Below, one piece after another: positions 1-33,966 of a stretch of DNA of 34,765 nucleotides (position 1 is the first letter of the stretch; every line of letters starts with the position of its first letter). The translations under genes and the position numbers were made by a program. A model generated the notes under the pieces. The model had not been told where the DNA came from, made no database searches, and worked only from the letters and a program-made list of their open reading frames with translations. The DNA is from Candidatus Omnitrophota bacterium (GTDB taxonomy: Bacteria; Omnitrophota; Gorgyraeia; 2-01-FULL-45-10), in assembly GCA_018823705.1 (NCBI GenBank), contig JAHJHP010000089.1, positions 1 to 34,765 on the forward strand, read 5' to 3'.

Positions 1-500
1 TATGGGCTCTATCGCACGCTTATCGCCTATTTTAACCAACGCCTCAACAGCAGGAACTCCGATTCTATTTAAGCTGCCTATAAGCGGTTCCACAGCTCTC
101 AAATCACCTAAGTCCCCTAAGACTAAAGCTGCTTTTTCTGCTATATAGTAATGCCTACCATACATATGGCTGCTGTAATTCCCCAGTCCTTTGATCCATG
201 CTGTTACAATCTGTTCTTTTGTTGCACCGAGTTTATTCAAAACATTAATTATTGTATCGGCATCGTGCTTGTATTTCATACACTCTATAAGCGGTTCTAT
301 CGCGCGCTTATCGCCTAATTTGCCTAACGACACTACTGCCTCAATGGCGGTTACACCCAAATGGTCTATTAATGGCTCTACCGCCCTATCGTCTCCTATA
401 TCACCCAGTATTTTCGCAGCCGTTCTTGCATTGTCTTCTTTATTAACATTTATAATTGATATATTCAGGCACTTTGTACAAGCTTCTATCATTTGTTCAT
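1..500 (-). other. HEAT-like repeats at the window edge
   Basis: Residues about 10000-10166. Repeats of the PBS-lyase HEAT type are clear: ILGDIGDDRAVEPLIDHL, LGKLGDKRAIEPLIECM, LGDLGDLRAVEPLIGSL and a partial IGDKRAIEP at the edge. They also show in DNA, for example near-identical words at 7-28 and 296-316. HEAT repeats form protein-binding solenoids. The array continues outside the window. Confidence 0.85.
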
Positions 501-3500
501 TTGTCGCCCCGAATTTTTTTAATGCTGCTGTTGTCTCCTGTATCGACATATCTTCTGTTCTGTGCGCATTTTCTAGCAAGCCCTTTATTGCATATTTTCT
601 AAATCCTAACATTCCCATCAAGAAATACCGACCCCCAGGCGACGACAATAAAACCATCAAACCTACGAGAGATACTAATATCGGTATTGATAGTATTAGC
701 AACGTCAACTCCCACCATGGTGATACCGTAGCCCCTCCCAGGGAGCATCCTGTCAGTATTAGGGTGGTGGCTAATAGAACCATATTGGCTATTTTCCCAC
801 GTGATAACTTCGAGAATATATCCTTAAACGACCTACGCTGAGAAGGCGCAAGTTTAGGGACGATGTCGTTTTTAACGAAATCGTTTAAAACCGTTGTCTC
901 ATCTTTGGTAAGTTTAGATTTTGCCGCTATCTCTTTAACCAGCTCTTCTTTATTAAAATCGGGATCTTTTTGCTTTCTTTCTAGGATTTGAAGATCCAGC
1001 TCAAATATCGCTTTTTCCAGATCATTGCTTACAATACCAAAGGCATCCCGTAATGATGCTGTGCCGGCTGTATCCAATTTATAGTGCCCTACTAAGTGCC
1101 TGAATACCGCCAACTTATCACTCCACATCATGTTCTTAAAAGTGGTGGCTGCTTCAATTACCCCTTCTTTAACAAGCCTATCCACAAGCGACACATCCTG
1201 CATAAAGCCCGGCTGCTGCAGTTCAATGAGGTCATTAACGGCTTTATACAGAACTGGCGTGTTATCAAGCTGTGTAAGCTTAACTTTTCCTATTGAATTA
1301 AAACTATAGAACGTTGCGATTAAATCAAATATCGGTTTTTGTCCCGTAGCAAAACTCGTTATATTCATAGCCTCGCTTACCAGATCTTCAAATTTAAATA
1401 TCTCTTGTTCCTTCTTCTTAATCATCTCTATGTCGCTTGTTTTTTTTAGTTCTTCCAGCTCTTCTCTATTAACTTCAAGAACCTTCCTTGCCTTCCCCAA
1501 AACAATATCCCGCAAGCCCATAAATTCGTCGTATGTGGTAGCCTCCTTTAATTTAAGATATAGAATGCTACCCCTATCCGCATCAAGGACAAGCGCATTT
1601 TCATAGATTGCCCATATGAACTTTCGCCCATCTTCTGATAATTCGTGCTTGGACACTAATGCCTTCACTTCCGCTAATTTCACGTTATACGACTTATCGT
1701 CATAATGCGGCGATTTAATAATGTCCGATAATTCCTTCATGGCATTTCGTATCTTATCAGGCTGTTCGACAGACAGGTCTTTTTCAACGGCAGTTAAATA
1801 GACCAATATCCTTTCGTAAGGCTCAAGCTTGCATCTGGATAGAATCCTACCAATGATAGCAATGCTTTCCTCTCTAATTTTGTCCGCGTTCACACTGGGA
1901 TTTTTATCAATAAACTCTTGCTTCTCTTTATCATAATATGATTGCCACCATCTTTCTGACAGTTTTATCCTCCTGCCTATAAGGGGCTTTACATAGTTTT
2001 TAAAAAATTCGGCATCGTAATCTGTCGCCCCGCTCAAGTACTTTTTTATAATACGGTCCCTATCGCGCTCATAGGTTTTTACTATTGTAAGTAGCTCATT
2101 GAGGGCCTGGATTAAATCTTTATTTGCGGATGTCTTGGGAACCTTTTCGAGCGCGCTCTCTACCGCTGCCGCGCCATAGCCATTAGATAATTGTTTAAGC
2201 ACGCCTTTGAAATACCCGCTAAACTCCTGTTTCATTGAAAACCAATCCGCGAAATCCGCGCCGACCCCGAATCCATAGTTAATAAGTAGGCTTCTCTCTT
2301 TTATTTGGCCACTCGATTCGTGCTGCTCGCTAAAGGCGATTTTTTGTAATGACACGAGCAGCGCGCGTAATTTCTTTACCTCTAGCTCCTCTATATTTTT
2401 CGAATTGGGCAGCTTGCTTAAAAGCAGATTTAGTGTTTCTAAGCCTTGCGGTTTATCAATTATCTTCTTTACCGTCTTTTTCCCATCCTTTGTTTCTTCA
2501 TATGTGAGATTATATGTGTCTTTAAATTTCGCTATGGCGCTATCTATCTCCGCATATGTTTTCAGGTCCAACAGATCTTTAAATGTGAGCCAGTTCAGCA
2601 GTTTCGCTCGAGCGTTTGGTAAATTTCTGAATTTAAACCATATTTCGCCAATCTTACGTTGCCCATTCGAGAGCGTGCCCATCCATTCTTTTTCTTCTGG
2701 CGAAAGATTATTTGAATCCGTTATTTTATCAAGCCGCTGCCAGATAGCCGCGTTTTTACGCTGGTCCTCGGATAATCTGCCAACCCGAAGTAGCTCGTCC
2801 TCGGTTGGATTGAGCCAATCAATATTAATAGTTGTGTAAATTTTAAGCCCATCTATCGCGGCTTTAGTTTCTTTATCGGATTCATCCATTGAATTAATAG
2901 CATCCTTTAAATCGCTTTCCACGCCTATCTCCTCAAGCACAAAATCTCTCTTCTCTTCTTCGGTCAGCTCAACAGGCCAGAATTTTTCTCCCGGTTTCCT
3001 CGGGCCTATGCGCTTGGCAATCATTGAAACAATTTTAATACGATCCCATCTGGATTGACCTATCTTGTCCAGCAATAATTTCTTGCCGGTCTCAGTACTG
3101 CTCAATTTATTAAGGACCTCTACGCGCCTTATGTCCGGTATTTGATCCCATAGCGACTTCCATTCCACGTCGGTCCACGACCTGATCTGCTCGTCTTCCA
3201 GTCGCACACCTTTTAACCTCATAGCCCTGAGAAGCCTTAGTATCTCGTCCGTCGGGTTGAGGTCCGTCAGATAGTATAAGTATAATCTCGCGGCATCTCT
3301 ATCTCTAGCAACATCTTCATCACCTTTTACTAAATCGATGATCTTCCCTATCACCTCGTCATCGGCCGGCGTATTCCTCTCTGTTTTCCAGCGGCGTAAT
3401 TCTTCTGTCATCTGAATCAGAGGAAGCGGCACGTAATCCTGCGTACCACCGTACATGGCGGTTCGCCAGGCCAGATATGGGCCAAATATCCACGAGATTA

Positions 3501-6500
3501 TAAATATAGGGAACCCCTTAAAGGCAAGCGCGGGATCTATCATCCTCAGGAGCGGAAAAACGTTGCCACCGGCCACATAGAGAATGGTAGTTAACAGGAA
3601 TAAACTTCCAAATAAAGGCGCAATCCAGAATTGCTTATACGCGTCTATCAGTCGAATGCCTTTCGCGAATGAAGCCTCAACCATGGTAAGGTTCTTCCAG
3701 ATAAATTCTGTACCGGTTTTTACGATTTTAATGCCCCTCAGTACCTCTATCGGCCTATAGATCAGGTTCATCATAAGTATGGTCGTCAGATATATGGTCT
3801 CTAAAACGGCTCTTCTGGCTATCTGCACGGCTTCATAATCGATCGTTAGAATATCACCTATCTTTTGCACTTTTTGAAACTTGCTCTTAATAAGCGTGTC
3901 GGCGAGGACGCTTCCTATCGCGGTGAATACCGCCAGAGGAATGATTATACACGGCAATATACTGCTGCCTAAATTCTGCCCTACCCATAACAACCAACTT
4001 GCCGCAGGAACGCTCCTTAAGCTCAGCTCTATGCTGGGTATAGCTAAATTAAATAAATAGAGAGCCCCGGCAGCGACGACGATTTTAGCAGTAGCCGTTA
4101 TCGCTTCTTTCACTGACATACCCTTTATCTTATTAATGATGGGCTTTGCCGCAAAGATCAACGACGCAGTCGCCATTATAGCCAGCGATGTCATTGGCGA
4201 TAGAGTAGCAAGCAGGGGCAAAACAATTATTATCCCAAGGTACGATAATCCTGCACTTAGAAAAATCATTTCTAGTTTGAGCCGACTCGTGAAATCTCTT
4301 ATGCCTCCCTCGAAGACCTCTCTAAAAAGCGGCATTGCGAACTTCTGGCCTATCAAGATAACCATGATGGTACCGAATATCCAGTTTGATATGCTGGACG
4401 CAGTAGCCGTTATAAGCCCCGGCATCTGAAGAGCCATCAGCCCTAAACCTATTAGCCAAACAGCGAATATCGGTTCCGCTATCATACCAGACATAATACC
4501 CTTTATATGCCCCGCGCCTTCGGGCGTAATATGCGACCTGCCCGTAATATCTCTCCATATACCGGACACTAACGTCTTCCACGCCGTACCGGGCTTACCC
4601 TGGGACAATTCCAGCAGAGCGCGGGTCGGGGCATGTTCATATTTCAGCGCAATAACATCGCCCGGTATCCATCGCCCGCTTCTCTCTATCATAACGAAGA
4701 AGCTTGTAGAGGTATTCTCAAATACCTTGATCTTTTCCGCAGGCGTGCCGATCAAGAATCCGGTAGGGGTCCACATGGCCTCCCAGAAGTCATGGCTCCG
4801 GACATCCCACGGTATAACTTTCTTCTTCATGACGTCATTTTCATATATTTTAAGATTGAACGTCATCTTCCCGATCGCTGATCCTTCGCCATACAACCAA
4901 AATCTGACCACATTTATATAGGGAAGTATCCCTTGAGCCCAAAACTGCGTCCTCGTGAATGTGCTCGCGCCGGCATTTGGATAGTCAGCACTGGGCTGGT
5001 ACATTCCGAACTTTTCCTCATCACCTCTATCATATACGGCTCTTGCTATAATACGTTTGGCGGCGTGAGCAACGATTTCGTTTTTATTATCGGTCTGCAC
5101 GGGATACTGTATGGAGACATCCGGCTCAACCTCATGCCTGAGCCTGTCCCGGACTATTGCGCCATCCTGCATTACGAAAGTCCCCACCCTTACTTTTAAA
5201 GTTTTAGCATCTTTCTGATACTCGGCATAGCCTTCCTTGTCTATAGAAAATTCGTGTTTTTCAGCCAAGGTTCTGCTTATAATGAGATCTCCGGATTTGC
5301 TATCTATGGTAACTGCGCCTTTGCCGAAAGTGGCCTCAAGCGGAATATTTCTTCCTGTATCGCCCTTAATTCGCAACTGATTATCTTCATCAAGGACAGC
5401 TCTACCTGACTCTATGCGCGCCTTCGAATCATTCTTCTTTACGAAATAAGACTTCTCATCTTCAGGATCATGCTCCTGATAAACATCATTATAATTCGCG
5501 AATATTTTTCTTTCGCCATATATATCGAATAATTTTCTTTCGCCATATGCATCATCATCATTTATATCATGACCGGTGATTTCATAAGTATCGTGCTTCG
5601 CGAGGCGCTGCCACTGTATTAAGCTTCCTGTTTCATGATCGATAACCACATTATCCTGAATAACGCGTCTGACGCTCGGAAATTTTGCTATAGGATCGTT
5701 GTCATATCTTATAACGCTTCCGTCGACAGGATACTGCAGAAGCCTCTCGATTCCTGCGTCATCCTTACTCACCAAAAACCCGTCTTTTTCATTAGCAAGA
5801 TATCCGCCCTCAACCTCTCTTAAGCGCAATGAGCTTGGATCTTGTACTAAATTCCCGGATTCATCTCTTGTAAGAGAATGTTCTGCGTCAGGGACAAAAT
5901 ACACAGCTTCTCTGCCTGTCTTACCTATGCCAAGGTCAAATATATCGGCAATACAGCCTTCCTGGCTGTACACGCGGGCCTCTTCCTCCGTTATGCCGCC
6001 GACATACAAAGCGCCGTCTTCGTCCCGCCTCCATGTTCCATGCTTGGCCAGGATCTGTCCATCATTTGCGATCGCATCACCGGTATCCTGATATATATAC
6101 CATTCTTTGTCATTCGCGATCCGCTGTGTATTCCCGCTTGCCTTTGTCAGATACCCTTTGGAATCTACTTTATCAACAAACTTTTTCAGCAGCTCAAGCG
6201 ATATATAGTTATTGCGCTGGACCTCAAATTGCCTTCCGTCACGAGATTGATCTACAGCGATTCTCGGCAACTCTTCACCCGTCGCCTGCAATACGCCGTT
6301 CTCGTCCGACTTATAAACGGTATATTTTACTTCAAACTCTTTCGAGAAATTTTTGCCTTTTGTTTCCTGTAGATCATCTATAGTCATCACTACTTTGCCG
6401 GGAGTCGTTATATTTATTAATTTACCGTCTTTCGTGAGTTGGAACGTCCTGGCAACATTACCATCTACATCTTTCTCATAAACGAACTGCTCATAAACCG

Positions 6501-9500
6501 TGGAGACTCTCCTGGGAAGCGGCTTACCGTTTAAGCCCATAATATGTATCTCTTTGCCTGCGCTGCGCCTATTGTGCAGATAACCAAATCTATCTTCCTC
6601 ATACATATCTTTTGTGGCAACGAGCTGTCCGGTCCGGTCATCATATAAGTCGCCCTGAAGCATCCTATATCTCTGCGAAGGATTTTCTGTATCGATATAA
6701 TATAACTCCGAATCAAAAGAGACTTCTTTCTTCTGGCCTTCTATAGTCATAAACCTGCGTTCCCGCGCAAATTTATTACTGCCGAGCGGAATAACATAAT
6801 CGTTAACAAGGTAAAAGCCTTTTTCTTTTTTGTCATATTTATAGTCTCTGACAAACTCGCCCCTCTTATATACCTGCTCTTTCCCATCCCTATCGATTAC
6901 TTTGGCTTCACCGGTTTTTGGATCTATCCCGTAAGTATATGGTTTGGCTAAAGCGCCTATGGCAAAATGGCCATCTCTATTTAAGGTTATCGAGAACATG
7001 TCTCTGGCGTCATCGGTTCTTTGGACGTATAGATGCGGATGCGTCCAACCATCCATAAAATATTCAAAGTCACGCCTGTAAGCGCCCGGTTTCGTCATTT
7101 GGCCCTTAGGGTGAGAAACTCCGTCTTGACCGTTGGGATGAAAATAGATTATCCTATCTCTGCCATATTTTCTTCGCGCATCAAGTAATTGCTTTAGGTC
7201 CTCCGCATACATAGCCCCGAATACGTAACTATGCAATATCGCCCCGATATTATCTTCCGGGTCGAATCTGTATTTTTTACCATCTGAGCTCTTATAATCG
7301 TATGGCCCTTCTTTCGCCTCTAACATTTTTATATTTGTTAAGAACGACCTAAGCAAAGCGCCGTAGGTGAGCCTCATGTCGGCCTGAGTTAACTGAGGGC
7401 CAAGGCTGAACAAAAATGTCCTGTATTTACGAGGGATTCTATCTGTTTTGTCTATTACAGGATTTTTAGGCAGATCAAAAACGCTCCGTTTCGTGAATAA
7501 GCTGCAGACCAACCCTGCCACATACCCCATAGCGGCAGTGGTTATTAACGCTACGCAGTTATAATTACAATATGTATAAAACGCTATGGCCAGCGCAACA
7601 AGAGCCGGCACCGAACTGGCCCAGCTCATCGTATGTATCCCATAAATGTAGGTGAGGCCTATACCTACCGCTAAGACACCGGACGAGAATAACGTACCCA
7701 TAAATTCGTTGCGGACCTCTCTTCTTAAAACCTTATCTTTTGTCAGCCAACCTTGGATTGAAAATACCGAGAACTTTGAGAAACTTACGACAAGATTCAC
7801 TGCTGAACTTGCCGATATATAGACCAGGCCGGTAGCAACCATAGCGACTATGACATTATTTACCGCGAAATACGTAAATGCTCCTGAATAATACATAAGA
7901 GCTGCCGCAGATAACATCTTTATCAATGTGCCCGTAATGCCCTTGATATTTATTGCTTTGAAAGAAACGGTATACAAAAGAACCAGGGATATTGCAGTAG
8001 CTGCTATCAGTAGCGCGCTTGACATCGTAAATAACAGCTGGAATTTTGTTACATCGTTAAATATCCATAGCACGGCCCCGCTTATACCCAGTTTGACGAG
8101 GAACATCACGACGTTGAATATAACTCTGGGCTCGGTCGTGCCGGGGCTGGGGCTCTTTGCCTTGGCGGCTACCGTAGCGGAGATAGCGGGTTTTGCGGGA
8201 GGTGCGCCGGGAGGAGCCGGTTGTCCGCTAAGAGCCGCCTGCGCGGCCTTCTTAGCGAACCTCTCTATTATACGCTCTATAGCGCGAGCTATTGCCCTAA
8301 ATCCGAGGGCCGCAAACACAGCGCCGACGAGCGCCATTGACCGTAAAAAGGATATAGGATCGCCCCATTTAAGAGCCTTTTCTTCGCGCAGAAGATTTTC
8401 CACGATCGCCTTTATTTTCGCGGTTATTTCCGCGTTGATAACCTCAGGACTTGCAGTCTCAAAGCCTGCTTCCACCACTTTCTCTGTCACTTTTCCATCG
8501 ACTTCTATATGCTGCAACCTTAACAGATTCTTCGCTATGATCTGATCCGCGGCCCTGCCTAACATATCGCCGGATAATCCTTTGCCATATATCCTCTGTA
8601 CTCTTTCTTTCGCGGCCGTGCGCAGCACTTTATATTCTCCCTCGATATGTGACTTTATAAGTCCTGCCCAATAGGCATCCACGGAGGCTTTAACATTTAG
8701 AGCTAATAACTTATACGCCGGAGAGTTAAGGTCCATACCGATCTCGGGTATTTCGGCGATACCTATGATCTTATTTCTGTCGAGCTTATCTTGATCAAAG
8801 AATACCAACATCTCAAAGGCGCTTCTGGTGAGCTTCATATTTTCGCGCTGCGCGATATCATCCGAAGTATAGTCGCCTTCTCTGGCCAGTTCTTTCGTGA
8901 TCCTATTTCTTATATCGATGACCGTATCTATCAGCATAACGAGCGCGCTCGGATGAATGTTCCTTTCGTTCATATTGTTTACTATACCTTTTATTATCTT
9001 GTCAACTCCGGCCTTTTCTTTAAGATCTGCCGAGGCGCCAAAGCCTACTCTAAGGAGCTGGCCCCTTACCACTTCTGCTTCTTTTTTCTTAGCTTCATCA
9101 GTAAGCTTTATTTCGCTCACCTTAGGCGGTTCGACCAGGTTTGTATCGAGCGTAAGTCCGAGCGTATAAAGGATACCTTTTATATCGACCTTATACCTCT
9201 TCTGGATAAGGTCGATATATATCTTTAGAGTCAGGTTGATAACTCTGTTTACGGGCAGATCCGTTTTATCAGCTAAATCGCTGACTATCTTCTCTTTACT
9301 GCCTTTCATATCTATGCCGATATCTTCAGGATTGACCGGCATTATTCCATTCACTATCATGTGATTTGCCAGTATCTCAGCTTGCAGATCAGTAAGTTCC
9401 TTGGGTCCGCTTTCAGTTTTAGCTAATATCTTATTCATCTGGTTGCGGATATAATCGCTATAAGCCAGTTGCGTCTTTATATAATCGGGCGTCCATCCGT

Positions 9501-12500
9501 CAAGATCCATCTTCATGACATAATACTTTATCTTTGCCTCAGCGGCTTCGTTTATCGGGATACCCAGCTCTCTGTAGACTTCTCTGATCTCTTCCGGTTT
9601 TTTATACGCTTCCTGCAATATATCTTCGGCCGTCATGCCGGATGCAAGCATAACCTTCTGAAAGTACCAGATAAGTTCCGAATCGGCAGGATCTATCTTC
9701 TTACCGGCAGGAAGCGTGGCGTTGACCACGGTAATCTCATCCTCGATCTCTTTTTTGAATTTCTCCATGTAATCTTTTATTTGTGATACGGCTCTGGCTA
9801 GCTCTGCAGGGGTATCGTTTTTCGACTTAACCTGCGTGGCATAATTTATCGCTTTGGATCTCCTAGCGTCTTTTTTATCCTTTTGCTCCGCTATCCAGTT
9901 ATCAAGCTGGGCCCTGTTCTTCTTGACCCAGAGCTCGTTTCTGCCTGCCATACCTCTCTCACTGCCTCCTTTGCCGTTATCGGTCATAATAGCCATATTT
10001 TCGACAATTAACGGGAGAACTAGCCTATCCAGCGCGACTATATCGTTCTGTATGCGGGTCCTTACGGAAGCTTCATCTCCGAGATTACCTTTTAAATAAT
10101 CGGCCTGCTCCCAGTCGTAAGCCGACTTGGATAACATATACAAGAGCTCGTTATGGAAACCACTTAAAGTTTCCACCGTCTCGCCTCTTGCTTTTACCGA
10201 CTCTCCTAATTTGTCCAGGACAATCTTCCCGAGGCCTCTCTGCAGAACGGCACTCCTCGAACTCTCCAGAGCGCCAAATACCGTCCTCTCATTCCATAAA
10301 TCGTTTTTTTCGGCTTCAAGATCGGCTCCGATATTCTTATACGCCACTGTCTGCCCGACGTAAGTATTTATGAAATTGGCTCTCGCCCTGTCTTTGTTAT
10401 TATAAAGAACAGGCAGTCCGAAATCTTTTCTCATAGTATTTATCGCGTTTTCCAGCATCGGATTGCCGAGATAATAGCCGAGATACTCTTTAGCCCAGCC
10501 CTGGATTAAAGTAGCGTCAGCAAACCAGCTCTTGATTTCCGCGGCCTCTTCCTCCGATGATAGGTTTTTGCCCATCAGGCTCTCATATCTTCCTACCATC
10601 TGGCCTTTGGTTAACCTGGTTACTTCGTCAGGGTTCTTCGCCAAGAAGCTCTTTATAAGCTTTTCCTGGAGGTCATTTATAAGCGCTTCATGTCTTATGT
10701 TCTTCGCTATTAAATTTCTTATATACCACTCACCCGCCTCTTTGCATTCGGCTTCGCTCATACCCTGCTTCTTAAGCCGCTCCACATATCTCTCTTTTGC
10801 CAGCCTGATGTCGGTCCCGAGAGTTATGCGAGTTTGTATGAACCCCATCTCGCCGACCTGAAGCTCGCTTCCGTTGGTCCTGAATACAGAATTAAGATAG
10901 GCTCCGTTCACCATCTCACCCAGAGCCGTCTTCTGGCGGCCTTTGAGCAACTCTTTTATGCGCGCAATGCGTTTATGGACTAATTCCGGCCCGGGAAGTC
11001 CTGAGTCAGGATCCGGGCTTTCGGCTCTGACCTGGGCGTCTAACTCTTCATACAGGCGCTGTGCTTCCGATGTAGCCTTCTCATCCGCAAGCTTTTCTCT
11101 GTATAGGTCGAGATTATATAATAATCGCGCCCTTAGCATGGTTCTTTGAAGTTCATCCAAATTCTTCCTGTTCTTATTCAAATCGCGCAATGTCCACCAC
11201 CCGCTCACTCTCTGCCATATCTTACCGGCGTAATTTCTCTTAAACTCAGATTCCGCGGCCTCTTTTTTGTCAAAAGTTTCTCTTAGCTCTTTCTCTTTCT
11301 TAGCAATCACATCATTGAGCTCTCTCCGATAACCCGGTATCTCCTTACCGTCTTTATCTTTTCCTATCGACTTAAGCTCTGCTTTTCTGGCATCGGCCAT
11401 TGTCTCGATGATCAGATCGATCCTCTTTAAGAGGCCATCCACCAGGTCAAGAGACATTTTGTTGGGTTCGGCTTTTTTAAACTCTTCGCGGTCTGCCCTG
11501 CCGGCATTATCTATAAGCGCCGGAAGCTCGCTGAATATTTTGATAAGCTCTTTTCGTAAAGCCGGATCTTTTATAGCTTCTACAACTTTAAATCCACCCT
11601 TATATTCCTTATTAAGCTCTGTTGCGGCTTCTATCGCCTTTTTCAAAAGCCCGGGTTTTTTGGTAAAATCGGCTTCCATCAGAAATCTATCTTTTGCTCT
11701 TTCAACATTCTCGACTTCAGCGCGGATAGACTTCCAGGATTTGAACCTGGCGCCTTTTATAATCTCCATTAACTCCTTTATGCGGCCGTTAAAGACTCCC
11801 GCTTGATTCAGGGCTTTGGAGAGATCAGTAATCGCCGCTTCGTCCGTTAGACGCTCTTGTTCAGATTTGACTAAATACTTCTTCGTCAGGTCTACAGCTA
11901 TTATCTGCCCATCCTGTTCAAATCTGATAAGTTTGAATATATCGGCTATCGCCTGTGCGGCTTCCTTCACTCTTCCTTCTACCGCTCTCCATTCTTTAAT
12001 ATCGGATTTGGCCAGACGCTCATCTATAAGTTTCTCTTTTCTGGCCACTTCCAAATTCCTTTCAGCGCGGTCAAGATATGCCCTCTCCATCATGACATTT
12101 ACCCAGTTATCTACTTCACCGGCCGTTAGCTGCCGCCAGTTGGCTTTAGCCGCCTTATCAACGACATCGCTCGCTCTGAGGATGGCTTCGATCTTCCCTG
12201 CGTCTTTTATCTTTCTCTCGTAGAACGATTTCACCCTCGAATTGACAACACCCTGACGATATATGCCGCTAAAATTCTCTCCGCACTTTTCACGGTAATT
12301 ATCGATCTCGTATTTACTGAACGTAACGTTGGCCTTCTTGGCTTTTGCCTGAAGTTGCTCTACGCGCTTATCGACGTATCTGGCCTTTTCCATGTCGTAC
12401 TCTATTCCTTTGGACGCGACGGCGACCACTCCTTGATCGACAAGTTCGTCCACCAATCTTCTTAGGTCCAGAATTATTTCGACATCGTTTATATTTACAA

Positions 12501-15500
12501 TTTTTTGCGGTGGAAGCGGCGCATACTTATTATCGACTATAAATTCATCGGCTATCACGGAGATCTCTCCGGATCTATACATGCCGCCAAAGATAGCGGT
12601 TGCCTCTTTCCTTACGCGCGCTTCTTCAACCGGTGTTATAGGTCTGCCATAAGCCCTGGATTTTTTCTTCAGTTCTATAGCTATGTATGCCTCCAGATCC
12701 GCCACCTTAAGTTTCTCAGCCTGACTGACTATCTGAGGCGCGGTGAGCCCTTTGGCAGGCTTTGCTCTTAAAGCGTCCATCTTTTCGCGAACTCTTTTCC
12801 TGTATTGCAAGTGTTTTTCAAGCTGTTGCATCGCATTCTCATGCCCCGGCTGTCCGTCCTTAAGCTCCTCTTGCAGAAACCTATCCAGGCTAAGCAGCCC
12901 GCCGATATAGGCGCTTATATCGGATTCCGGAGCATTCTCATCGAACTTTATTCCGTTATAGAATTCATACTTGGGTTTCAGTTCACGTATCCTGCTCATC
13001 CTGTCCTTAAGACCCTCCGTCTCTTCCCACCCGTCCTTTATTCTGGATAAAGTGTAACCGAATAAGAACCCTACGCTCTTATTGCCCAGTGGATCATTGG
13101 CATTCGATGGATCGGGCCCGAACTTCACGCTTGAAGGATCGGCCTTGTCACGAAGTATAGCCAAAAATTGCCTCGCCTCTTCTTCAACCTTCACCACTCT
13201 GTTCAAGATATACGTCGCCTCAGCAGTAGTCCATTTATTGGTCTTCGCCAGATCGTAGAAACTCATCAGACGACCCATATGATCCGCATTGTCGACATTA
13301 AATTGCCTCGGCTTACCGCTTGCATCGGTAAGATCGTACACGTTCTCTATATACGGTTTTATCACTGTAAGATAATCGAACAGGTCTTTTATTGAGCCCG
13401 TTACCTGTTTCATTTCATCGCTGGTGAGAGGCCTCTCTTTGATCGCCTTTTTTATCTCTGCGTTCTTTGGCAGCCCCAGCGCGTATTTCACGAAGTATAT
13501 GCCGTTACCGTACAACTGTCCTTCTCTTAATAATTTAACCTCTTTGGCTATCTCGTTATTCACATCCGCCAGCTTATCACCTGTCTCTTGAGACACAACT
13601 ATCTGTATCTCGGCCATATAACCGTCGCGCCGGCTTATCAGGTCCCGTAACCTGGCTCCTGTCGGCAGATCCGCTAATCGCTTCTCAGTATAGTCACCGT
13701 AGAACTTGCCAAATCCCGCTTCGTCCTTTTCGCTTATTCTACTTAAGATCGCCAGGAAGTTATCAAATCCCGTATATGTGTTTCGACCCTCCGAATATAT
13801 ATCCCCCGTAAGAGACCTGAATATGTTCCATGTTTCGATCTTTCCGCGTTCTTTCTGGTCGCCGAATATGGTTAGGCCTTCCCCGAAACGGCTCTCTATT
13901 ATCTTTTTCACTTCATGTATAGCGTCTATGCGCTCATCCGAAGTGATCTTATAAAACTCTTTTTCATCCAGATCTATTCCGGCCTCTATTATCCATTTGA
14001 AATAAGCTTTAAGCTCATCGGCTCCGGGCCTGTTCTTTCCTAAGACTTGACCCATCCTTTCGCTCTCGCCGATCTTCTCGTATTTATCTATATCGTCAAG
14101 AACACTCTTAATATTTACCTGTGGATTAGCCATCTTACGGCTTGCCGCGTAGCTAAGCATGCCTATAAGCGAGAGGTTAACTTTATCTCCCGCGGATTCC
14201 ATCTTGCCGTCTTTGCTAATATCGTTAAGATAACTCAGCTGATCTATCGTCAGATATCCTTCATAGTGCTTGCCCCACCTTATTACCTGTTCTATCCTCT
14301 TAGCTATAGGAGCCGCCATATCCCCACCCTGGTCATAAGCCTGTGACATGAGCCCTAACTTGGCCGTCATCTCTTCGACAGAAAGTTTATGAGCGCTCCT
14401 ATGCGCTTCAAAGAGAGCTATCCAGTCGCTTAAGTTCAAAGCGCGGTTATTGTCTTTATACTCTATGCCGAGCTTATCAAGTAGAGACGTAATAGCTTTC
14501 TCATAGCTATTTGGTATAGCTATGCGCGCGGCATGAACAGGTTTCCAGAAAGGTTTCTCTATGCTGTCAGCTAACTGGACTATCCGCGCTTCTTCTATTT
14601 TCGGCGCGGCGGCTTTTTTGACCGCCATTTCCAACTTATCTTTATTAGCTTGTTCCAGCTCCGCCTCTGCCATCGTCCGGGCTTTCAATAATTTATTCAG
14701 GTCGTCTCTCTGCCGCGCAAGCCTGACATTCTCTTTCCCGGATGGAGCCTGGGCGCTTACCTTAGCCGTGGCTCTGATTTGCTCTCTCTCGAGGCCTTCA
14801 AGCTTTTCGGGTGTGAGTCCGTATAATTTGAGCTGCGCGCTCACTAAAGCGTAGATCTTCATATAACCATTCTTCGCGCTCACATACTCTATCTGCGCCA
14901 GCTCGGATCTCTCGATCGCTTCCCTATACCACGGTTTTCTGCCATCCTTGAAGTCTTCCTTGTCCTTATCGAGCTCCCTCTTGCTGTATAAAAGCGCTTC
15001 TTCGGCGCTCTCCAATACTTCGTATGCGCGCGAAAGATTGGCATGCAGGGCGCTAAGCTGATGTTTCACTTCCAGGATCGCGGCTTCAGTCTGCTCCCGG
15101 ACAAGCTCGCTCTTTAAGCTATCGGAGATACTCTGGGCTTTGAGTTTTCCTCCGTCGAATATGGCCTTTCTGGCTTCGATGCCTATATTCTGGGTCATCA
15201 ATCCGAGTATACTGACGACCTTTACCTTCGGCAGTATCCTGTCTAATCTGCTGTCTTCGAGCCTGAAACTGGCTTTCACCTTCTCCAGCTCCATAGCTTT
15301 TAATCTTGCATCCTCAGGCAATGAATCTACAAGAAGCTTATTGACGCGATCCGCAAATACGGGAATATCTCTCTGTATGATTTCGGATGCTACTTCCACA
15401 TCAGGACTGATGGTCCTGTTAAGTGTCTGCAGGTTGAATGTGGCTATCCTCAGCTCATCCTGCGACAGCGCTAAAAATGAATCCGCCTCTTTCAGGGCGT

Positions 15501-18500: not shown

Positions 18501-21500
18501 CTCCGCCCAACAATCCGGCTTCTATTATAACGTCGAATTGGAAGTTGCTGTCCGAAGTAAGCACGATACCTTCCTGCCTGCCTATCTCGTTCAACAGATT
18601 ATAGCCGCCTATGCTGCCGATAGATCTTGAGAATATGCCTCCAAATGTCAGATCGGAGTAACCGGTCTCTCTCATGTCCGAGAATAACCAGCCTTTTTGC
18701 CGCAATGTGGCAAAATCGCTATACTTGTCGATAATCCTTATCTTATTGCCGTCGATGCTTCTCATAATGGCGTAAGGTACGCTTTTAGGCTCGAAACCGC
18801 TGGCCGGAGAAGTCCCTACGTCTTTCTTATCAAACACTCCGGATGAGAGTCCATAAGAAGTCCACCAGGCGCCGTTACCATTGGTATAATAGAGTTTCTT
18901 GGCTTCGTTGTAGTTTATATCGAACGTCTCGCCCTTCGGGCTTGTAGCGCGGTACTCTCTTCTGATGACGATCCCAGCCTGCTCGGGAGCTTCGGCTGAA
19001 AGTCGGGTGGCTTCGAGAATTACGGCTTCTGACAGTCCAGCAACCGGCGCAACGGTCATAGGCGAGGTCGGCCTGAATTCGGCCAGTAAGTATTCCGAGG
19101 CTTTCTCCAGGGCGCTCCGTATAATGGGCTCTGCGGAAACGCTCGGTGCCGGCCGCATCTCATTTATAGCCTTCTCCACGGCGGTGTTCACATCGTCAAT
19201 GCTCACCGTCTGCGCCCTGCCTTTCAACGAAGCGTAAATGCTTTCGGCGAGATGGTCGGAGAGGAAATTGCTCTCGAGATAGTTCTTCGACTCGGCGCTT
19301 AACTTGTTATCGCCGTAAATGGCGTATTTAAGCGCGCCGTTTATTATGGTGGCCAGTATAGATATCTTCTGCCTTATTATGTCGTCGGATATTCTTGTGA
19401 TTTTAGCGTCGGCTATGCCTACCCCGTCGACTTCATTTATCAGAATCGGTTTAGGCGTGTATGGAATGGCCTGTATAAACGGAGCCGGTGCCATGGGCAC
19501 GGTATGCGGCGGAGCGAGGCTTTCGCGCGGCTCGACCGAAACGGGCATTGCTTTGTCATCGAGCGATAACAACTCTCTTATTAAAGAGGTGATCGTCTCA
19601 CGGCCGACTTTTCCATCTATTTTCGCGAGGCCGCGATCTTTCTGAAATTTTATAACAGCCGCTTCAGTCTCCGGTCCGAACCTTCCGTCAACTTTATACC
19701 TTGGCAGTTCATAACCGAGAGAGGTCAAGGCGCTTTGGATAATTTTGGTCTTCGGATCAAAGGCAGGGCCCCTGACCTTCTTTATGACATTACCCTGATT
19801 TATAAAGTTTGCTACCGCTGATATGCGGCTCGCGACGGCGGTATTATTCTCCCGGGCGTATTTTAAAGCATCCGCGAGGTCCGCGAACTGCGGCATCTCT
19901 CTCTTTACGTGCGCAGGCAGCGTTTCTGCTTTGGCCTGTTGAATTTGCGGCGGCGCGCGCGCATCGAGGCCTTTTGCGAAATACTTCTGCAAAAACACAT
20001 ACATGGCGTCTTGTTTAGCGTAACCGTTCGGTGAGAAGACCCTGTTATTTACATAAAGATTAGGCATGAGCCCCTCGAACATACTGCCATCCCACGAGGG
20101 GATGAAGTAGGCGGTCTTGACGCCTTCTGTTGTATCGATATGATGCTTGTAGTAAGGGCCGTCCGGCTTCTGCGCCTGCCAATCCCGTTCTTCAGGCAAA
20201 GTCTTGGGTGTATTCGCCCAGGCCTCTTTACCTATGTCGCCTTTACCTATAGCTATTAAGAGCGTGGGGCGGATTTCGGTATATATAAGGCCGTAGTGCG
20301 ATTTTGTCAGTCCGGTATTTTCGTCATACCCGTTGGCAAATTTCCGTTCATTCCTGTCGTACAGGCTGTCAAACTTCATATCCGCTACGATCGCGTCCGC
20401 GGTACTTTTGAATTCCGGAAATGTCTCACCGGCGACTATGAGGCCCGCGGCAAGCCATCCGTTATCTACGGTGGAAATATGCCTGTCCCCTTTCGTCACG
20501 GATTCCAGATCGTCGGTATGATAATAATTCCGGAACAGCCCGTTCCACTTATCCAGTTTCTTAAGGGTATTTATCGTGTTGGCTATCCTTGTCTTCGCTT
20601 CGGCTTCGGTAATAAAGCCCATCTCTTTTGCGCCGACGACACTGGTGAGGTATAGTCCGATATCCGTTACCGAAGTATAAGTGGCTGCAACGCCCGAATC
20701 TATCTTATTAGGCGGCAGCCAATTCGTCCCGGCATTAACGTTATCTCTGAAGTAGCCCCAGGTTTTCTCGGCGATCCCGTTAAGCCTCTTCCTGTCCTTA
20801 TCAGAGATGTCTCTGTCAAGTGATAGTCCAGAGGGATCATCTATCTTTTCAAATTTTTCGCCTAACAGGCCAAGTGACTTTGAGACCCTGGCATTCGAGG
20901 CAAAACGGTCCTGGATCGTCCCATCTTTTATATAATTGACCATAGCTATGAAACTCATAGCCTGGTTAACCGCGACATACTGGGAAGAGACGGCCCCGGT
21001 CTTTGCATTAACGGAATCATAAGCGCCGTATTTACCGAAGATCTGAGGATAGAGCCTGAGCATCTCATTTATGTTGCTCATCGCCTCGGAAGGGGCAACG
21101 TCGAGAGCCAGGAAGATAGCGTGAGGAGCCATTACTCCGTTTCTCGCGAAAGCGTAGCCCTCGTCATTCTTATTCTTACTGCCGAGAGGCGCGCCCGCCC
21201 TTAAATATTTTGTTGCGTCCGAAGGATCGTTTACCACTGAAGTTCCCCATACAGGGAATCCCATCGGGATCAATGTCGGCTTAAGGGCAGCCGCCTCCTG
21301 CGCAGTAACTTTAGCTTTTATAGCCTCGACTTCTGCTTTAACTTTAACTTCATCTGCCTGTTCCGCAGCAAGTTTAGCTTTAAACTTCTCGAACTCTGCC
21401 CGTTGCGCAGCAAGTCGATCCGCTATAACCTCGGCTTCGACAATTTTAACAGCGGGCTGTGCCACCTCAGCAATAGTCGCGATATGCCCGTCCATAACAT

Positions 21501-24500
21501 CATTGACTACATTTCCGATATTCCTGCCCAGTCTTTCAAACCCCGCGAACTGTTGCGAAGAATACGCGCTTATGGACTTGTTGGCCGCTACGGTAGCCTG
21601 GCTCACAGCGCCTTCACGAAGGGCCGCTTTTGCATTCTGGGCTTGCGCTGAATAAGCGGCCTGTGGATAGACCACCATCGGCGTAATTCCGGCCGATAGC
21701 ATCAGCGCCTGAGAGCTCATTCCTGAGATGGTTTCAGACACCCTGCGGCCCGTGGCCTTCTCTATGTTAACACTGTATCTATTCACGAGGAACGTGCCGA
21801 TCGATACCGCTGCCACAAACACCAACGACGGCATCAATCCTCCGAATAATATAAATGCGGCCGGTAATGACATGGAATACATCATGATATTGCGCGAACT
21901 CGGCACAAACGACTCCGCGAATGTTCTCCAATAACTCTGGCCGGCGCGCTTAGCCTCCAAAGCTATCTTCCTGGCTTGGACCACCTGCAGTATGATCATC
22001 GCAATACCGATAACCGCGATCGGAGCAGATATGAGCGGCATTATTATACTCATGGAAAACATGGAAGGAGCTCCGAATATAGCCGACAAGGTCATGAGGC
22101 CCAGTCCTGCAAGGATACCCAGGGCTCCTCCTGCGTATACCGGCCAACGTTCCCTATATGATTTCTTTTCGATGCTTCTGGCTGCTATACCGGCGCCTAT
22201 TCCGGTTGCGATTATAACGCCGAGCGATATCAGGGTCGCTGCGATAGCTCCGCCGCCAACCTGAAGGGCAAATGCGAGGCCTATCGAGACGGCTATCGCG
22301 CGCACAAATGTATTGAGTCCTGCCTGGAAACGCGTTGGCGTTATATCCCTCACGGTATCGAGTTTCGATTTGAATATCATCAGAAGGGCAACGTTAGCTA
22401 TAAGGGCAAGGGTTACGGTAGCCAGAGCCAGCGGAAGCGCGGGCACCGCCAACGATCCTATAGTAAGTATCGGATGCGCTATCGCGGCTATCAGCGTGCC
22501 GCCGCCGACAAAAAGGCCGGGGCCCGCCAGTATCTGTAAAGCGATTATGCCTGCCCATCGGCCGAAAGTTTTGAAAAATTCGCCTCTACCAACGCCTACC
22601 GTAAATCTCATGAAGTCGGTATTGGACCTGTCGATCGCCCCTATCTTCTTACCGTAGAGCTGCCTTAAATAGACAGCGGCTATGAGCATCATCGCGGCGG
22701 CGACTCCGGTCAACAGCGGCTGCGCCGCAAGCGCAGTGATCAAAGGTTGAAGTATATCGCCTGCCAGAGATGAGATACCAAACTTAGCCACCAGAAAACC
22801 TGTTCCCAAAACCATAGTTATCGCGGCGACAGTCTTCACGAAATTCTCCGAAACGACATCGCGTAATTTTCTCTTCGGACTCTCCGCGACATTTGTAACT
22901 TCATCTCCCATATTCTGCGATATGATGGCTGTGATGAAGGCCTTGGCGTCGTCCATTCTCGAGTCGAACGTCCTGGCAAGTAACGCCAGGTTAGCGATCT
23001 CCTTGTCGAACTGTATGAGCGCCGCGCGGAATCCCAGCCTCGCCTCGCGGGCCAGGTAATCGAGCCTCTTTCTGATAGCCTGCTGTTCTGTTTGGAACCT
23101 GCTCAGCTCATCCGTCAAATTTTGCACGGCTAACTGTCTCAAGATGTCTATCTTCTCATTTAGAAGATTTATATTCTCATCATCACTAAGTGCTTTACCC
23201 TCTTTAATAGTGTTAATCACGATGCCGTCATAAGCGCCAATCGCCTTAAGGAAACTTATAAACCCTTCGCGCGTGGCCATAACATTAAGAAGGTTCAGTA
23301 TCTTTTCCTGGTATGCGAATACCTCATCCTCATATTCACGGCGCCTCTCATCGCTACGGTTCCTCTCGCTCACGATCCTGTCTCTGATCTCAGATATCAG
23401 GCCTGGCTTAATCACTTTTCCATCTGATGCCACAATGCCTTCTATGGCGATCGTATCGTCTGTTGCCACCGCTTTGCGCAGCCCTACGATTTGCTGATCC
23501 AGAAGCGTCGAATGCTCCTTAAATATAGCTTCGTCAAAAGAGAAAAATCCTTCCCACGAACCCTCATTGGCGCCTCTATCGGCGCGGCCCTGCGTCTGTA
23601 TTTCAAACGCCTCCGCTTCATCAAGATAGGTCGATATGACATGCAAACCAGGCGCATCCTTGTCCAGCGGAGGGACCTGCGGGCCTTCAGTACCGTCGTT
23701 ATTGAGGATACAACCTTTTACCTCTATGTCTATGCCGCGGTGGGCTATATTCGTGACTATCGTTATGACGTTGGCGTAACCGGCCTTCGCTATATTTGCG
23801 GAGAACTCGTCCGCGTTCCTACCGCTGGCGAGGTTTATAATGATCTTCTTTTCGTCAATCAGCTCCGCAAGATTAGACTTTATATACTCCCTCAGATATT
23901 CCATATCGGTATCGGATTCGACTTTTATAAGGATGGGCTGGTTAGCGTTGATCCTCGCAGGAAGCGCTGCGACCAACCCTTCCCACTTCCCTTTCTTCGT
24001 ATCGAATCCCTTGTGACCAGCCGACTTATCAAGTCTTCTGGATTCGCCCTGTATCTCCGTCACGGTCTTCTTATTCCCGGACTTATCCTTATATATGGCC
24101 TCAAAACGATCTCTCTCCATCGTGCCGCTGGCGCCGGCATAATCTGTGATCATATCTCCCGAGAGGAACTGGCTTATCGTCATAGACATCGAGGTATATG
24201 TCTCCCGGGTCAAGTCCGCGTCATCGATGCCGGCGGCTATCTCTACGGCCTGTTGCAAGCCTTCGCCGAAGGACATACCGGTCTTTCTCGCGTTCGTATT
24301 TTCATCGCGGATATCGATGCCGACAAGTTTTCCGCGGGCGTCAAGGCGCTGGAAATACTGCTCGCCCTCTCTATAGAAGAGATTTGCGTTCAGCGCGTCG
24401 ATAGCAAAAGCCTTCCAGTTCTTCATCGCCATTTTGGCAAGCTCAGCATCGTCTTTGAATAATTCCCCGATCGCTTTTCGGACCGAGCGTTCTCCGCCAT

Positions 24501-27500
24501 CCGTCAGATACGCTTCCCTGGTTCCCTCCGGAGCATAATACAGGCCTTTATCTTCCAGTATCACGCTCTTTACGATATCGTTTATCGCCCTCCGCATGGC
24601 CAGACGATTCAGGGCGTCGGTCATCTCATTACCGGATATGATACACGGCGTCGCGCTTCCGAAGACGAGCGTGAGATCCGCTTCATCGAATAATGCAAAA
24701 TACTTATTTTTATTCATCGTCGGAGTATCAGCGCCTATCTTCTCCTTCATATGACGATGAACGAACCTGTCCCATTTGCCGTATATGATATCGCAACGAG
24801 TGAACACTTCCTCTACGGTAGCTTCTCTCCCCGATCCATTCTCGAATATCACGCCGCTCTCCGCAATGCTTCCGTCGGGCATAGCCCTTGGAACTATAAA
24901 TCCGGCAATGGCGCCGCATCTGGACAATATAACTCCCATCTTATCCTGCGACATAGCCTGCTCGGTAAGATTGTCTTCATGAGTCATTATCAGGACTTTT
25001 TTACCTTCTTCTCTGGCTTTTCTGTATTTTTCAACCATCTCAAGCGCCGTTCCGGCCAGCATCAATGTCTTGCCTCCGCCTGTCCTTAGTTCGGCAAAAC
25101 TACCCGCTTCCATCGCCTTAAGCGCTTCCAGCTGGCCTTTCCTGTAACTCAGTCTATCAGCGGGTATACCGCGGACTTCTCCGAACGCTCGGAGCATCTT
25201 CTCTTGTATATCTGTCATGATTACAGGCGCCGGCGCAGTCAGAACTTCCGGTGGTTGAACAATAACGACCTCGACAGGCATTACCGGCAAAGCAGCTTCA
25301 AGTTCACCCGATAAGGCATCTCTCTTCGCCTTAAATCCGGCTAAAATCTTTTCCCTCACGTCCTTCCTGCGAAGATCCAGTGAGAGTTTTTTCAGTTCAG
25401 CTCCCCAGTCACGGGCGTAGGCGCGCTTCGCGTATTTGGCAACCAGGAGCGGTATCTTTCTCTGTAATATCTCCGGGCTTTCGCCTTTTGCAAGAAGGGC
25501 TTCATATTCCGCGGCCATGCGTTTAAAATTAGCGTTATTTATTGCGGGTTCTCTTTCGAGGAAATCGAGATAGGCTATTCTCTCTTCCGGGGATACTTTA
25601 TCGCTGCACAGGTACTCCAATGTTTTACTTACTACAAATATCTCCTCATATAATTCATCATAGAGCTCAGTTTCTCGCGAAGGCAAGGCGTCACGGGCCC
25701 TGTGGCCGCGTAATAGATCGTGCAGCTTTTCGTGGTAAACCGATAACGCCACAGCCATCTGGCTTCCAAGTGACGGCTGTTCCGCGGCGGCACGCCCCAA
25801 TATCTTGACCGATAGCTGGATGCCCTGTTCCTCTAGCGCGGCTAGCTCTGATATGTTTTCATAGACCTCTACGTTTACGGGCGCCGCGCCAAGCTCTGTA
25901 TCTAATATTCCATTTGCTTTGTTCAGGCCCTTATCCAGGTTCTCTCTCTGGATCTCTTTAAGGTCAGCTGTATCGATCACGATCGGCGCTATCTCTTTGC
26001 TCTTAACCGGAGCCTTCACCTTAATGAGCTCCCGGCGTCGCCTATCGGCAACTCTGCGGTTCTGCCGCCTGTTGTTTTCGAGGTATTTTTTCGCTAACCT
26101 TATGGCAAATGCTATGGGTATGATTGTGTATATCCATGTCGCCAAACTCAGCAACCCGAATACCCAGCGCTGACCGAGGTAAGCTACGCTCAAGCTTTCG
26201 AGAGACACGTCCATGCGCAGTATCTTTTTAAAGAACTCCTTCTCGGCATTAAACGTGTCTATCTCGTATGAAGGTACATCCTGAAAAATAATATTTAAAA
26301 TATTTTTTATGTGCCCCAGCGTCTTGAGGTAAAGCCCGAAATATCCCCTGGCAACATCACCTTTCTTGTGGTGGACGGCCTCATGGACGAGCGTCCAGAC
26401 TTTACTGATAGTGTTATTCTGCTCTTTAAGCTCTATACTTGCCCCGCGGGGGGTACGCGCTATCATGCCAAAGAAATTTTCACCCTTTGTGGAGCCGGAA
26501 AACCAGTTGGTCTCCACAATCGTGATGCGCACGTTATTGTCTTCAAGATATTTATAAGTGGCCGGGTCGAGCGCGGATAGCGCGAAGAGCGTCTTCTGCA
26601 GGTCTTCGACCGGCATCGATCGCCCGGTCTTCTTATCCGTCATCGCCTTACTGCGTATATATTGCGGCAGGCTCGTCTTATCAACGGACGCCCACATTTC
26701 ATCGATGATCTTATTTATCTCCTTGATCCTTCTGTCCGGCATAGACCTATTACCGTGACCGTCATCCGGAGCGTTAAGCACAAGCTTGCCTCTGTCAACG
26801 TACGCGTCAAGGAGGAGGGGATCCTCTCCGGTGGTGAGGTTCGATGCAATGTTCTTGAAATATGTATACGAGGCCATCTTTTCAAAATAACTGCCGATGG
26901 CCCCCCGGAGCTTCTCCTGGTCGAGCGAAAATCGCTTCGCGCCTTGCGTAGATGTAGACACGGCAAGCTGAGCCGGCGGGGCGGCTTTTACCGGAAGAGC
27001 GATCGTTACCGGAGCGACAAGCTGAGCCTTTTCTATCCGGAGTGTTACAGGCGAAATTTGCGCCGGAGCGGCCATCGAAGGAATGACGCTTGATATGAGC
27101 ATGTATAGCGAAAGGACGAAGAGCAATAAGGCCTTAATGAAAACGGGGCCAACTTTCCTGCTAACTTCATCCGTAAGTCTTTGGGTGTCCAGTCCAGCTT
27201 TGCCGGTTTTGGTTATTTCATAAAATTCTACCGTGCCGGCACCTTTTGACTTTACCACTTTGAAGGATTCTCCCTCGAACACCTCTTTAAGCACAGGGTT
27301 TGCCATAGAGCCGATTATATAGAGTTTTCCGCCGGCTTTTAACATTCTGCGAATTTCTTTCGCAATTCTGGTGTAATATTCGCCTTCCGAAAACGGAGTC
27401 TGGCCCGCCGCAAGTTTGGAGTCCCCTTCATACATGTCATAGCATTCCGTGTTGAAGAAGTTTACGGATATTATAGTGTCAACAGAGCCATCGGCTATCT

Positions 27501-30777: not shown

Positions 30778-30786
30778 CTATTTTTC
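30719..30786. repeat. 27-bp perfect inverted repeat with 14-base loop; REP-like element or terminator
   Basis: Arms at 30719-30745 and 30760-30786 are exact reverse complements (core AGGGACAGCGCCCATTTT); the loop is 30746-30759. The stem starts with an A-run and ends with a T-run on either strand, so it could end transcription from the RND genes. The right arm overlaps the last codons and TAG stop (30778-30780) of the RND gene, suggesting that the element inserted there or that the gene end was remade. GGGACAG-type palindromes are common as dispersed REP-like elements, often linked to Y1 (IS200-type) transposases, but none is in this window. Confidence 0.85.
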
Positions 30787-33700: not shown

Positions 33701-33966
33701 TCTCCTTCCTTGGATATCGACAGCATCTCTTCCAGGTGCGTGACCGTACCTACGCCCTCTTCGACGATCTTAGTCACCATGGACTCCACTTCCGTAGGAG
33801 GAATGCCGCCGCGCACCTCGATTATTATGCTTATCTCACCGAAGCTTATATTGGGGTATAGTTCGACCGGCAGCTGCATGAGGCATACGACGCCCAAAAG
33901 AAGGAGCATCGAATAGATCATCAGCATCGTGACGGGTCTATTGATGGAAAAAGACGGCAGGCTCAT
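30778..33966 (-). CDS. RND-family efflux transporter permease (HAE1/AcrB type)
   Basis: A 1,062-residue inner-membrane proton-driven exporter of hydrophobic compounds that normally works as a trimer with a periplasmic adaptor and a TolC-type channel. It starts MSLPSFSINRPVTMLM, the usual HAE1 N terminus and first helix, followed by LPVELYPNI, two porter domains and the C-terminal six-helix block with LASLFESYYQP, GGIVVNNAILLID and RLRPILMTT. In helix 4 the AcrB Asp pair is D442-N443 (LVDNSIVV), and the helix-10 Lys is N (N951-N952), so the proton relay differs from AcrB, as in many HAE1 relatives. About 36-40 extra hydrophobic residues (about 361-396) sit between the usual helices 2 and 3. 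The start overlaps the stop of the upstream RND gene (ATGA), implying coupled translation. The stop lies inside the inverted repeat. Substrate unknown. Confidence 0.93.
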   Translation of the reverse strand: MSLPSFSINRPVTMLMIYSMLLLLGVVCLMQLPVELYPNISFGEISIIIEVRGGIPPTEVESMVTKIVEEGVGTVTHLEEMLSISKEGESTVVLSFEPGIPMEFAALEVREKFARVKNKLPKEIEKPIIAQFKRSDVPIVIISITSLKRTTEEIRKIVDENVREAIKRISGVADAEVAGGRERKILVEADQRRMAAYNLSLDRIIAMIGANNLNLLSGDIERAKDKYIIRTIGFYLSVDDIKNIPVTATPDGTIVRLKDVATVLDSYLDPTGYARVNVRPVVSIYVQKESTANTILVAKSVVDEIDRLRATLPKDLQLVITSNQADFIQKSIENLKVALLQGAGLIIIVLLYFLVKLNRKMIVLVTALLLVILFIPPNFLYPILGAMIIAAMILKKVRPVLIVSSAIPISVIITFIFMWSMKLSINFMTLFGLALGVGMLVDNSIVVFENILKKNEDGMAGMPASIAGAEEVWVAIWASTLTTIVVFLPMVFVGEEIKLLYGGVAWTVTISLVVSLFVSITVVPLLSSRIRFSIKDIPKGYGKANVVGFMRMLYKAQRKGVIYVLRNARNIYIIAFVAFIIAIFGLGRLGMEFMGTTEQNRFTIFIELPTGAKLDATDVIVKKVEAIVKEIPEVKTFSARVEPWSSKVYVELVSLLKRRRSVAEVIETLRPKVEKLKPAFIYFEEAQEVGTKEIIIELFGYEYDTMREVAISMATRLGSVKGFTDTKIRMREGRPELGLKIDKKKADIFNMTVTDVADAVHAQMRGLRATLYHTSASEVETIARLDEKYRKTFKDLHKLIFTNKNDDRVYLDQVADFKYGLGPSEIWRKNKTRMIQVSANVGKYPLSKAADLTKEAFGDLRLPDGYYYRIGGNYPTMMATQKQFKIIIWLIVVLIYLVLASLFESYYQPFIIMVSVPLALVGVAIALYLTGKSVGMGVLVGIMMLGGIVVNNAILLIDHINQLRKKKANYIKAAIAASRDRLRPILMTTITTLLGLLPMAMSTTEGSNLWSPLAITVGGGLISSTVLTLLIIPSIYVVSENAGIRLKALLANIHIFKPRGEK

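Follow-up and report, generated by a model that had tools for sequence, protein, structure and literature searches.

In the window, a 34,765-nucleotide stretch that comprises the whole of contig C89 of the Omnitrophota genome G000 (1.70 Mb in 97 contigs, 99% complete), we confirmed that the minus strand carries most of a genuine bacterial gene that runs unbroken for about 12,900 codons. The predicted protein has a start module and an end tail, shared with other such giants, around a fast-changing middle, together with a SecA-type motor, and this arrangement appears to be new.

A single reading frame of 12,902 codons

The frame starts with an ATG at position 30498 and covers positions 30498 to 1 of the minus strand (codons 1-10,166), on which all parts of the protein given below also lie; it is open at the contig edge, breaking off at base 1 because contig C89 ends there. 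Its translation contains 0 stops, the letters are A, C, G, and T only, with no Ns, and each of the other five frames is interrupted by 255-812 stops over that length. At such base composition, a stop-free frame of this kind would be expected by chance with a probability of about 10^-258. An earlier note on this DNA had described a single minus-strand frame of more than 10,000 codons and proposed extending it to the left as far as a stop codon; the description was borne out, and the stop was reached. Contig C37, taken in the reading direction, opens with 111 bases that match bases 1-111 of the window exactly; through this overlap the frame passes onto C37 and closes at C37:8322, which gives a protein of 12,902 aa, or about 1.4 MDa. 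The junction falls within HEAT/PBS-lyase repeats (aa ~10,021-10,166, positions 1-438) that adjoin the break and are a plausible cause of it.

The note had also suggested looking for full-length homologs in Omnitrophota genomes, and we found collinear ones in two congeneric genomes, of 11,305 aa on a single 251-kb contig (G003) and of 10,021 aa on a single 82-kb contig (G001). Both have the N-terminus and the final ~368 residues as in G000, each within one frame, and the join between C89 and C37 is therefore independently supported. Over the last 368 aa, G000 and G003 share 73% identity and stop at the same residue. Across six aligned blocks of these two genes, dN/dS is about 0.09-0.23 (dN 0.15-0.36 versus dS 1.4-2.0), which points to purifying selection on the giant frame. 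Over aa ~3,690-10,270, the frame has the support of the G000 assembly alone, together with a coding-like GC content by codon position.

A conserved start module and an exact C-terminal tail

The protein opens with a signal-anchor-like hydrophobic helix (aa ~29-54, positions 30337-30414) that is evident in the sequence and is also a helix in the structure model. This helix begins a region of aa ~29-566 (positions 28801-30414) that is conserved across Omnitrophota giants, here called the N-module, with the near-invariant motifs IQDAH, EG..G..DTS, and GG.H. A profile of the N-module matched 197 of the 384 genomes of the class and 123 of 237 genomes across the phylum, other classes included. It often heads frames of 5,000-13,000 aa and exists as a stand-alone protein of 530-660 aa as well. 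Among the best 80 of 500 relatives, all 79 named ones were from Omnitrophota, in agreement with the suggestion that this is an Omnitrophota-type giant. The structure model of the module (pLDDT 84) may bear a weak resemblance to the EreA/TIKI-like fold; the structural matches listed include EreC, 3b55, 2rad, and HopBA1, but all with E > 0.08, and a search of its profile against the PDB gave only chance EF-hand matches.

At the other end, aa 12,536-12,902 form a C-module. We detected it in 13 of 197 genomes, most of them from this family and order. In all 12 of the independent ORFs checked, the residue just before the stop is also the last one of the match, leaving 0 residues over, and these family members finish in Ala-Ala. 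In several C-module ORFs, the next N-module starts within a few hundred bases. The last 110 residues of the tail are distributed more widely than the C-module, and the terminal Ala is invariant. Tail and N-module occur together (p = 2e-8 at E 0.001 among 396 complete ORFs from the fetched loci; with the four seeds removed and E 0.1, the tail is in 8 of 27 N-module ORFs versus 2 of 365 others, p = 7e-9), these p-values being optimistic owing to profile circularity and related sequences. Both tail-bearing exceptions that lack an N-module lie immediately downstream of the giant, one in G000 and one in G003. A terminal Ala was present in 14 of 16 further giant ends versus 23 of 365 background ORFs. 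Six of the 14 come from outside the class (G403, G398, G414, G397, G395, and G388), and all six close with a tail that differs from the C-module and ends in Ser-Ala. One further frame, reported at 35,113 aa on contig C37 of G413, was unusable, as its end region contains 3,000 Ns and its length is inflated.

A second giant follows the first on contig C37 (12012-21308) and runs off the contig end, so that its length is at least 3,099 aa; its N-module is ~35% identical, and one part resembles phosphoglucomutase. Between the two lies a gene for a 1,111-aa HEAT/GNAT protein with the tail and without the N-module.

A SecA-type motor within the giant chain

After the N-module comes a conserved block (aa 906-1466, positions 26101-27783) with a sub-threshold methyltransferase-like match, a transmembrane (TM) helix, and an HExxH motif (aa 1372) shared with G003 and G001. 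It is followed by a SecA-type motor (aa ~1790-2400, positions 23299-25131), which keeps the motifs RTGGGKT (Walker A), FALFDEADL, GASGTM, NIAHRGIDI, and QTQGRADRG. A profile of twelve such segments from giants matched SecA structures in the PDB over the motor at E 7e-74, and the top Foldseek matches of the predicted motor model are all SecA (the first at E 6e-19). The motor motifs of NBD1 and NBD2 and the preprotein cross-linking domain of SecA, the preprotein translocase ATPase, are recognizable in the giant. In contrast to SecA, a free-standing partner of SecYEG of ~900 aa, this motor is embedded in a 12,902-aa frame, is ~25-30% identical to SecA, and is joined to ~10 TM helices. An ordinary secA of 922 aa is present elsewhere in the genome, and in a FastTree analysis of 33 sequences, effectively unrooted, canonical SecAs cluster apart from all those of giants.

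The fused helices form a polytopic membrane domain (aa ~2550-2945, positions 21664-22851) that is conserved alongside the motor. Full or near-full matches to a 1,196-position model of the motor and membrane unit were found in about 13 loci, all of them frames of more than 1,500 aa, several being cut by contig ends. We also looked for likeness of the ~10 helices to a SecY-like channel, and among the Foldseek matches listed there were only SecA and helicases (model pLDDT 65, pTM 0.45). The homolog on contig C56 of G014 is in two frames of 1,923 and 2,713 aa, with the frame change just past the SecA Walker A; this is either a broken gene or an assembly error.

Glucan, peptidoglycan, and outer membrane parts

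Downstream of the membrane domain, a Glycoamylase plus DUF3131 (Pfam) region (aa ~3080-3540, positions 19879-21261) is homologous to the cyclization domain of cyclic beta-1,2-glucan synthase (NdvB/CGS; PDB 8wy1, 8rf9, 8rf0) at E 5.5e-43. Unlike NdvB/CGS, the giant has the cyclization domain alone, with its matched halves in a rearranged order relative to 8wy1, and no glycosyltransferase was detected with it. A GT84 glycosyltransferase at aa 7690-8640, considered from the appearance of motifs, was rejected, as it had no PDB match and no paralog in its own genome. Elsewhere in G000, there are three more Glycoamylase-domain genes (C90, 23423-42669, frames of 429-776 aa) and another such domain in a 1,033-aa frame on C43.

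The glucan domain is followed by PG_binding_1 (aa 3583-3639, positions 19582-19752; Pfam, E 3.9e-14) and by an outer membrane efflux protein (OEP), or TolC-like, stretch at aa ~5089-5217 (positions 14848-15234). The order of motor, membrane domain, glucan domain, PG-binding domain, and OEP is kept in G000 and G003, and the glucan/OEP part was not detectable in the G001 giant. As for the domain content claimed in the earlier note, the SecA-like motor, the glucan enzymes, and TolC/OEP-like segments are present, but the proposed TolC-like array stands only in part: Pfam OEP matches two stretches (30.9 bits, 2.9e-7), whereas our own three-sequence TolC profile had no significant match in the giant and phmmer against the PDB returned nothing for TolC likeness. 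This domain content agrees with the view that the protein is unlike the usual giant adhesins and polyketide synthases.

A variable middle and exchanged enzymes

Same-frame domain homology from end to end had been claimed as well, and this applies to the flanking parts but not to aa ~3,690-10,270, where there are few recognizable domains (OEP and HEAT) and almost no similarity to G003. By blastp, the middle has a single weak stretch of 24.5% identity with G003, compared with 66-76% in the blocks that flank it. Hydropathy of the whole 12,902-aa chain gives 35 peaks, corresponding to multiple predicted TM helices, including a second membrane cluster (aa ~7382-7667, positions 7498-8355), a third (aa ~8672-8984, positions 3547-4485), and a pair of TM segments at aa 9903-9951 (positions 646-792). 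The first of this pair carries a lipobox-like sequence, LILTGCS, deep within the chain. We infer that large parts of the protein are extracytoplasmic.

Beyond the HEAT repeats, in the part encoded on C37, there are weak 2'-5' RNA ligase and UDPGP matches, and an HExxH-containing module is duplicated (aa 10,272-10,467 and 12,300-12,537). The duplicated module is also present in the G003 giant and in the gene downstream of it. A CBM48-like domain and a GT5 glycogen synthase, which retains the motifs KxGGLGD and EPCG, precede the C-module in G000, whereas the enzymes toward the C-terminus are a PPDK nucleotide-binding domain in G003 and HD plus RelA/SpoT-like domains in G001. Among these congeners, both ends and the SecA-membrane unit are kept, and the enzymes are swapped.

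Gene neighborhood

Upstream of the giant, on the same strand, lie a gene for an RND (AcrB-family) pump (positions 30778-33966) and a second RND (AcrB-family) gene that is cut by the window edge (positions 33963-34763). A promoter-like match at 30650-30623 is a consensus match only. RND-type operon genes are upstream of the giant in four genomes (G000, G003, G014, and G031): G003 has OEP and HlyD genes plus two more ~1,060-aa frames, and the neighborhoods in G014 and G031 contain OEP, HlyD, and two RND genes. In G001, the gene immediately upstream encodes an EngA-type GTPase. The adjoining RND genes and the internal OEP-like stretch recall RND efflux operons with TolC (AcrB/HlyD/OEP), but the giant is not an OEP protein, and a full OEP gene stands apart from it in the operons of G003, G014, and G031.

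A putative trans-envelope machine and its alternatives

We tentatively favor, as an account that falls somewhat short of probable, the view that the giant may act as a single-chain trans-envelope machine, a mechanism read from sequence features. The chain would be inserted through the inner membrane, which the membrane domain would cross, with the SecA-type motor in the cytoplasm, where we place it because a basic stretch follows the helix at aa 1446-1464, and with the glucan/peptidoglycan/OEP part facing the periplasm. ATP would be spent on moving or remodeling a glucan or protein at the surface, in the context of the neighboring RND genes. Sorting, anchoring, or quality control would be the role of the two ends, N-module and C-tail, which would mark a complete product, and the middle would diverge quickly through domain exchange, as expected for contact with other cells. 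We favor this reading because there is one closed frame with collinear congeners and dN well below dS, because the SecA motor is intact and co-occurs with the membrane domain, because there is glucan synthase and PG_binding homology with RND operon genes upstream, and because the C-module ends at the stop, the tail goes with the N-module, further giant ends are mostly Ala, and the glycogen synthase domain retains its GT5 motifs. Against it, a simple topology drawn from hydropathy is inconsistent, as the methyltransferase-like, GT5, PPDK, and RelA/HD parts need cytoplasmic nucleotides; the membrane domain was matched to no known channel; and G001 has different genes immediately upstream and no detectable glucan/OEP part.

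C-terminal tags that end in Ala, of the SsrA type, are linked to ClpXP-like quality control, and the Ala-terminated tail may be an end of that kind, a sorting signal, or an anchor. We know of no export machinery for the tail, and a SprA probe for a T9SS link gave no match, with control genomes equally silent.

The main rival is a processed polyprotein, with which the internal signal-peptide-like and lipobox-like helices and the HExxH motifs would be just as compatible; here one chain would be cut at such segments, by an HExxH metallopeptidase-like or N-module activity, to release enzymes, a motor, and parts of a pump. Cleavage is consistent with the signal-like helices (aa 1121-1139 and ~2925-2945), with the lipobox (aa 9915), with the four HExxH motifs, of which two lie within the duplicated modules, and with the mixture in one chain of domains that require different compartments. 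However, HExxH is not universal among the homologs (there is none in G031 or G091), no conserved cleavage site was seen, and the C-module is always at the very end, which is not required of a cleaved chain, so that we consider processing possible but rather unlikely.

The near-complete replacement of the middle between congeners, the differing C-terminal enzymes (GT5, PPDK, and RelA/HD), and the stand-alone forms of the N-module could instead reflect operon genes for ordinary secreted and metabolic proteins that became fused in frame, in a lineage that tolerates giant genes, with each domain acting for itself and no joint function. The conserved N-module and C-tail that bracket the chain, as well as the order of parts kept from motor to OEP in G000 and G003, make this quite unlikely. 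Even less probable is a delivered effector or predation device, in which another cell would receive the whole chain or its variable middle with the enzymes, the conserved ends serving as delivery signals; conserved ends around a hypervariable middle, a cargo that includes nucleotide-using enzymes, and the enrichment of peptides of a Velamenicoccus archaeovorus giant in cells attached to others (PMC10066038) are in line with it, but no delivery apparatus was identified, and several membrane clusters within the chain make wholesale transfer awkward. An assembly artefact or chimera is highly improbable, since the absence of Ns, the uniform coding signal, and the same two ends joined on single contigs in G003 and G001 argue against it, although the genome is in 97 contigs with a break inside HEAT repeats, the middle has no close homolog, and the related G014 gene is split.

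Relation to known giants

Giant ORFs are established in Omnitrophota (PMC10066038, PMC12057145, PMC11573180), with ORFs of more than 20 kb reported in most classes of the phylum (PMC10066038), and the G000 gene, one uninterrupted frame above that length, belongs with them. It resembles the published giants (PMC10066038) in phylum, extreme length, several TM helices, polysaccharide-related domains, and poor annotation. The suggestion that it is one of the largest bacterial proteins did not hold, as its 12,902 aa compare with 39,678 aa in V. archaeovorus (PMC10066038) and with the about 85,800 aa cited for Omnitrophota in the West-Roberts preprint, as quoted in PMC12057145. In the parts of the literature we consulted, Omnitrophota giants are described as having few domains and poor conservation, whereas here the N-module is shared, the C-tail is exact, and there is a SecA-membrane module. 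We found no report of these three features in our search; the preprint 10.1101/2023.11.21.568195 lay outside it, and priority is therefore uncertain.

A bolder idea, which we regard as unlikely, is that Omnitrophota giants form one phylum-wide two-ended system, in which whatever chain lies between the leader module and the Ala-terminated tail would be directed by them to a common route of export, anchoring, or quality control, and some of the giants would be self-powered translocation machines by virtue of the SecA-membrane module. Giants were previously called poorly conserved and hard to interpret, and the conserved ends give a handle on them: the start module and exact tail define gene ends in fragmented assemblies, let the family be counted and aligned, and, along with the SecA-type Walker A and the invariant residues of the N-module, point to testable regions. 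A SecA-type motor that carries its own membrane domain, covalently attached, would be unexpected as a device for export or remodeling.
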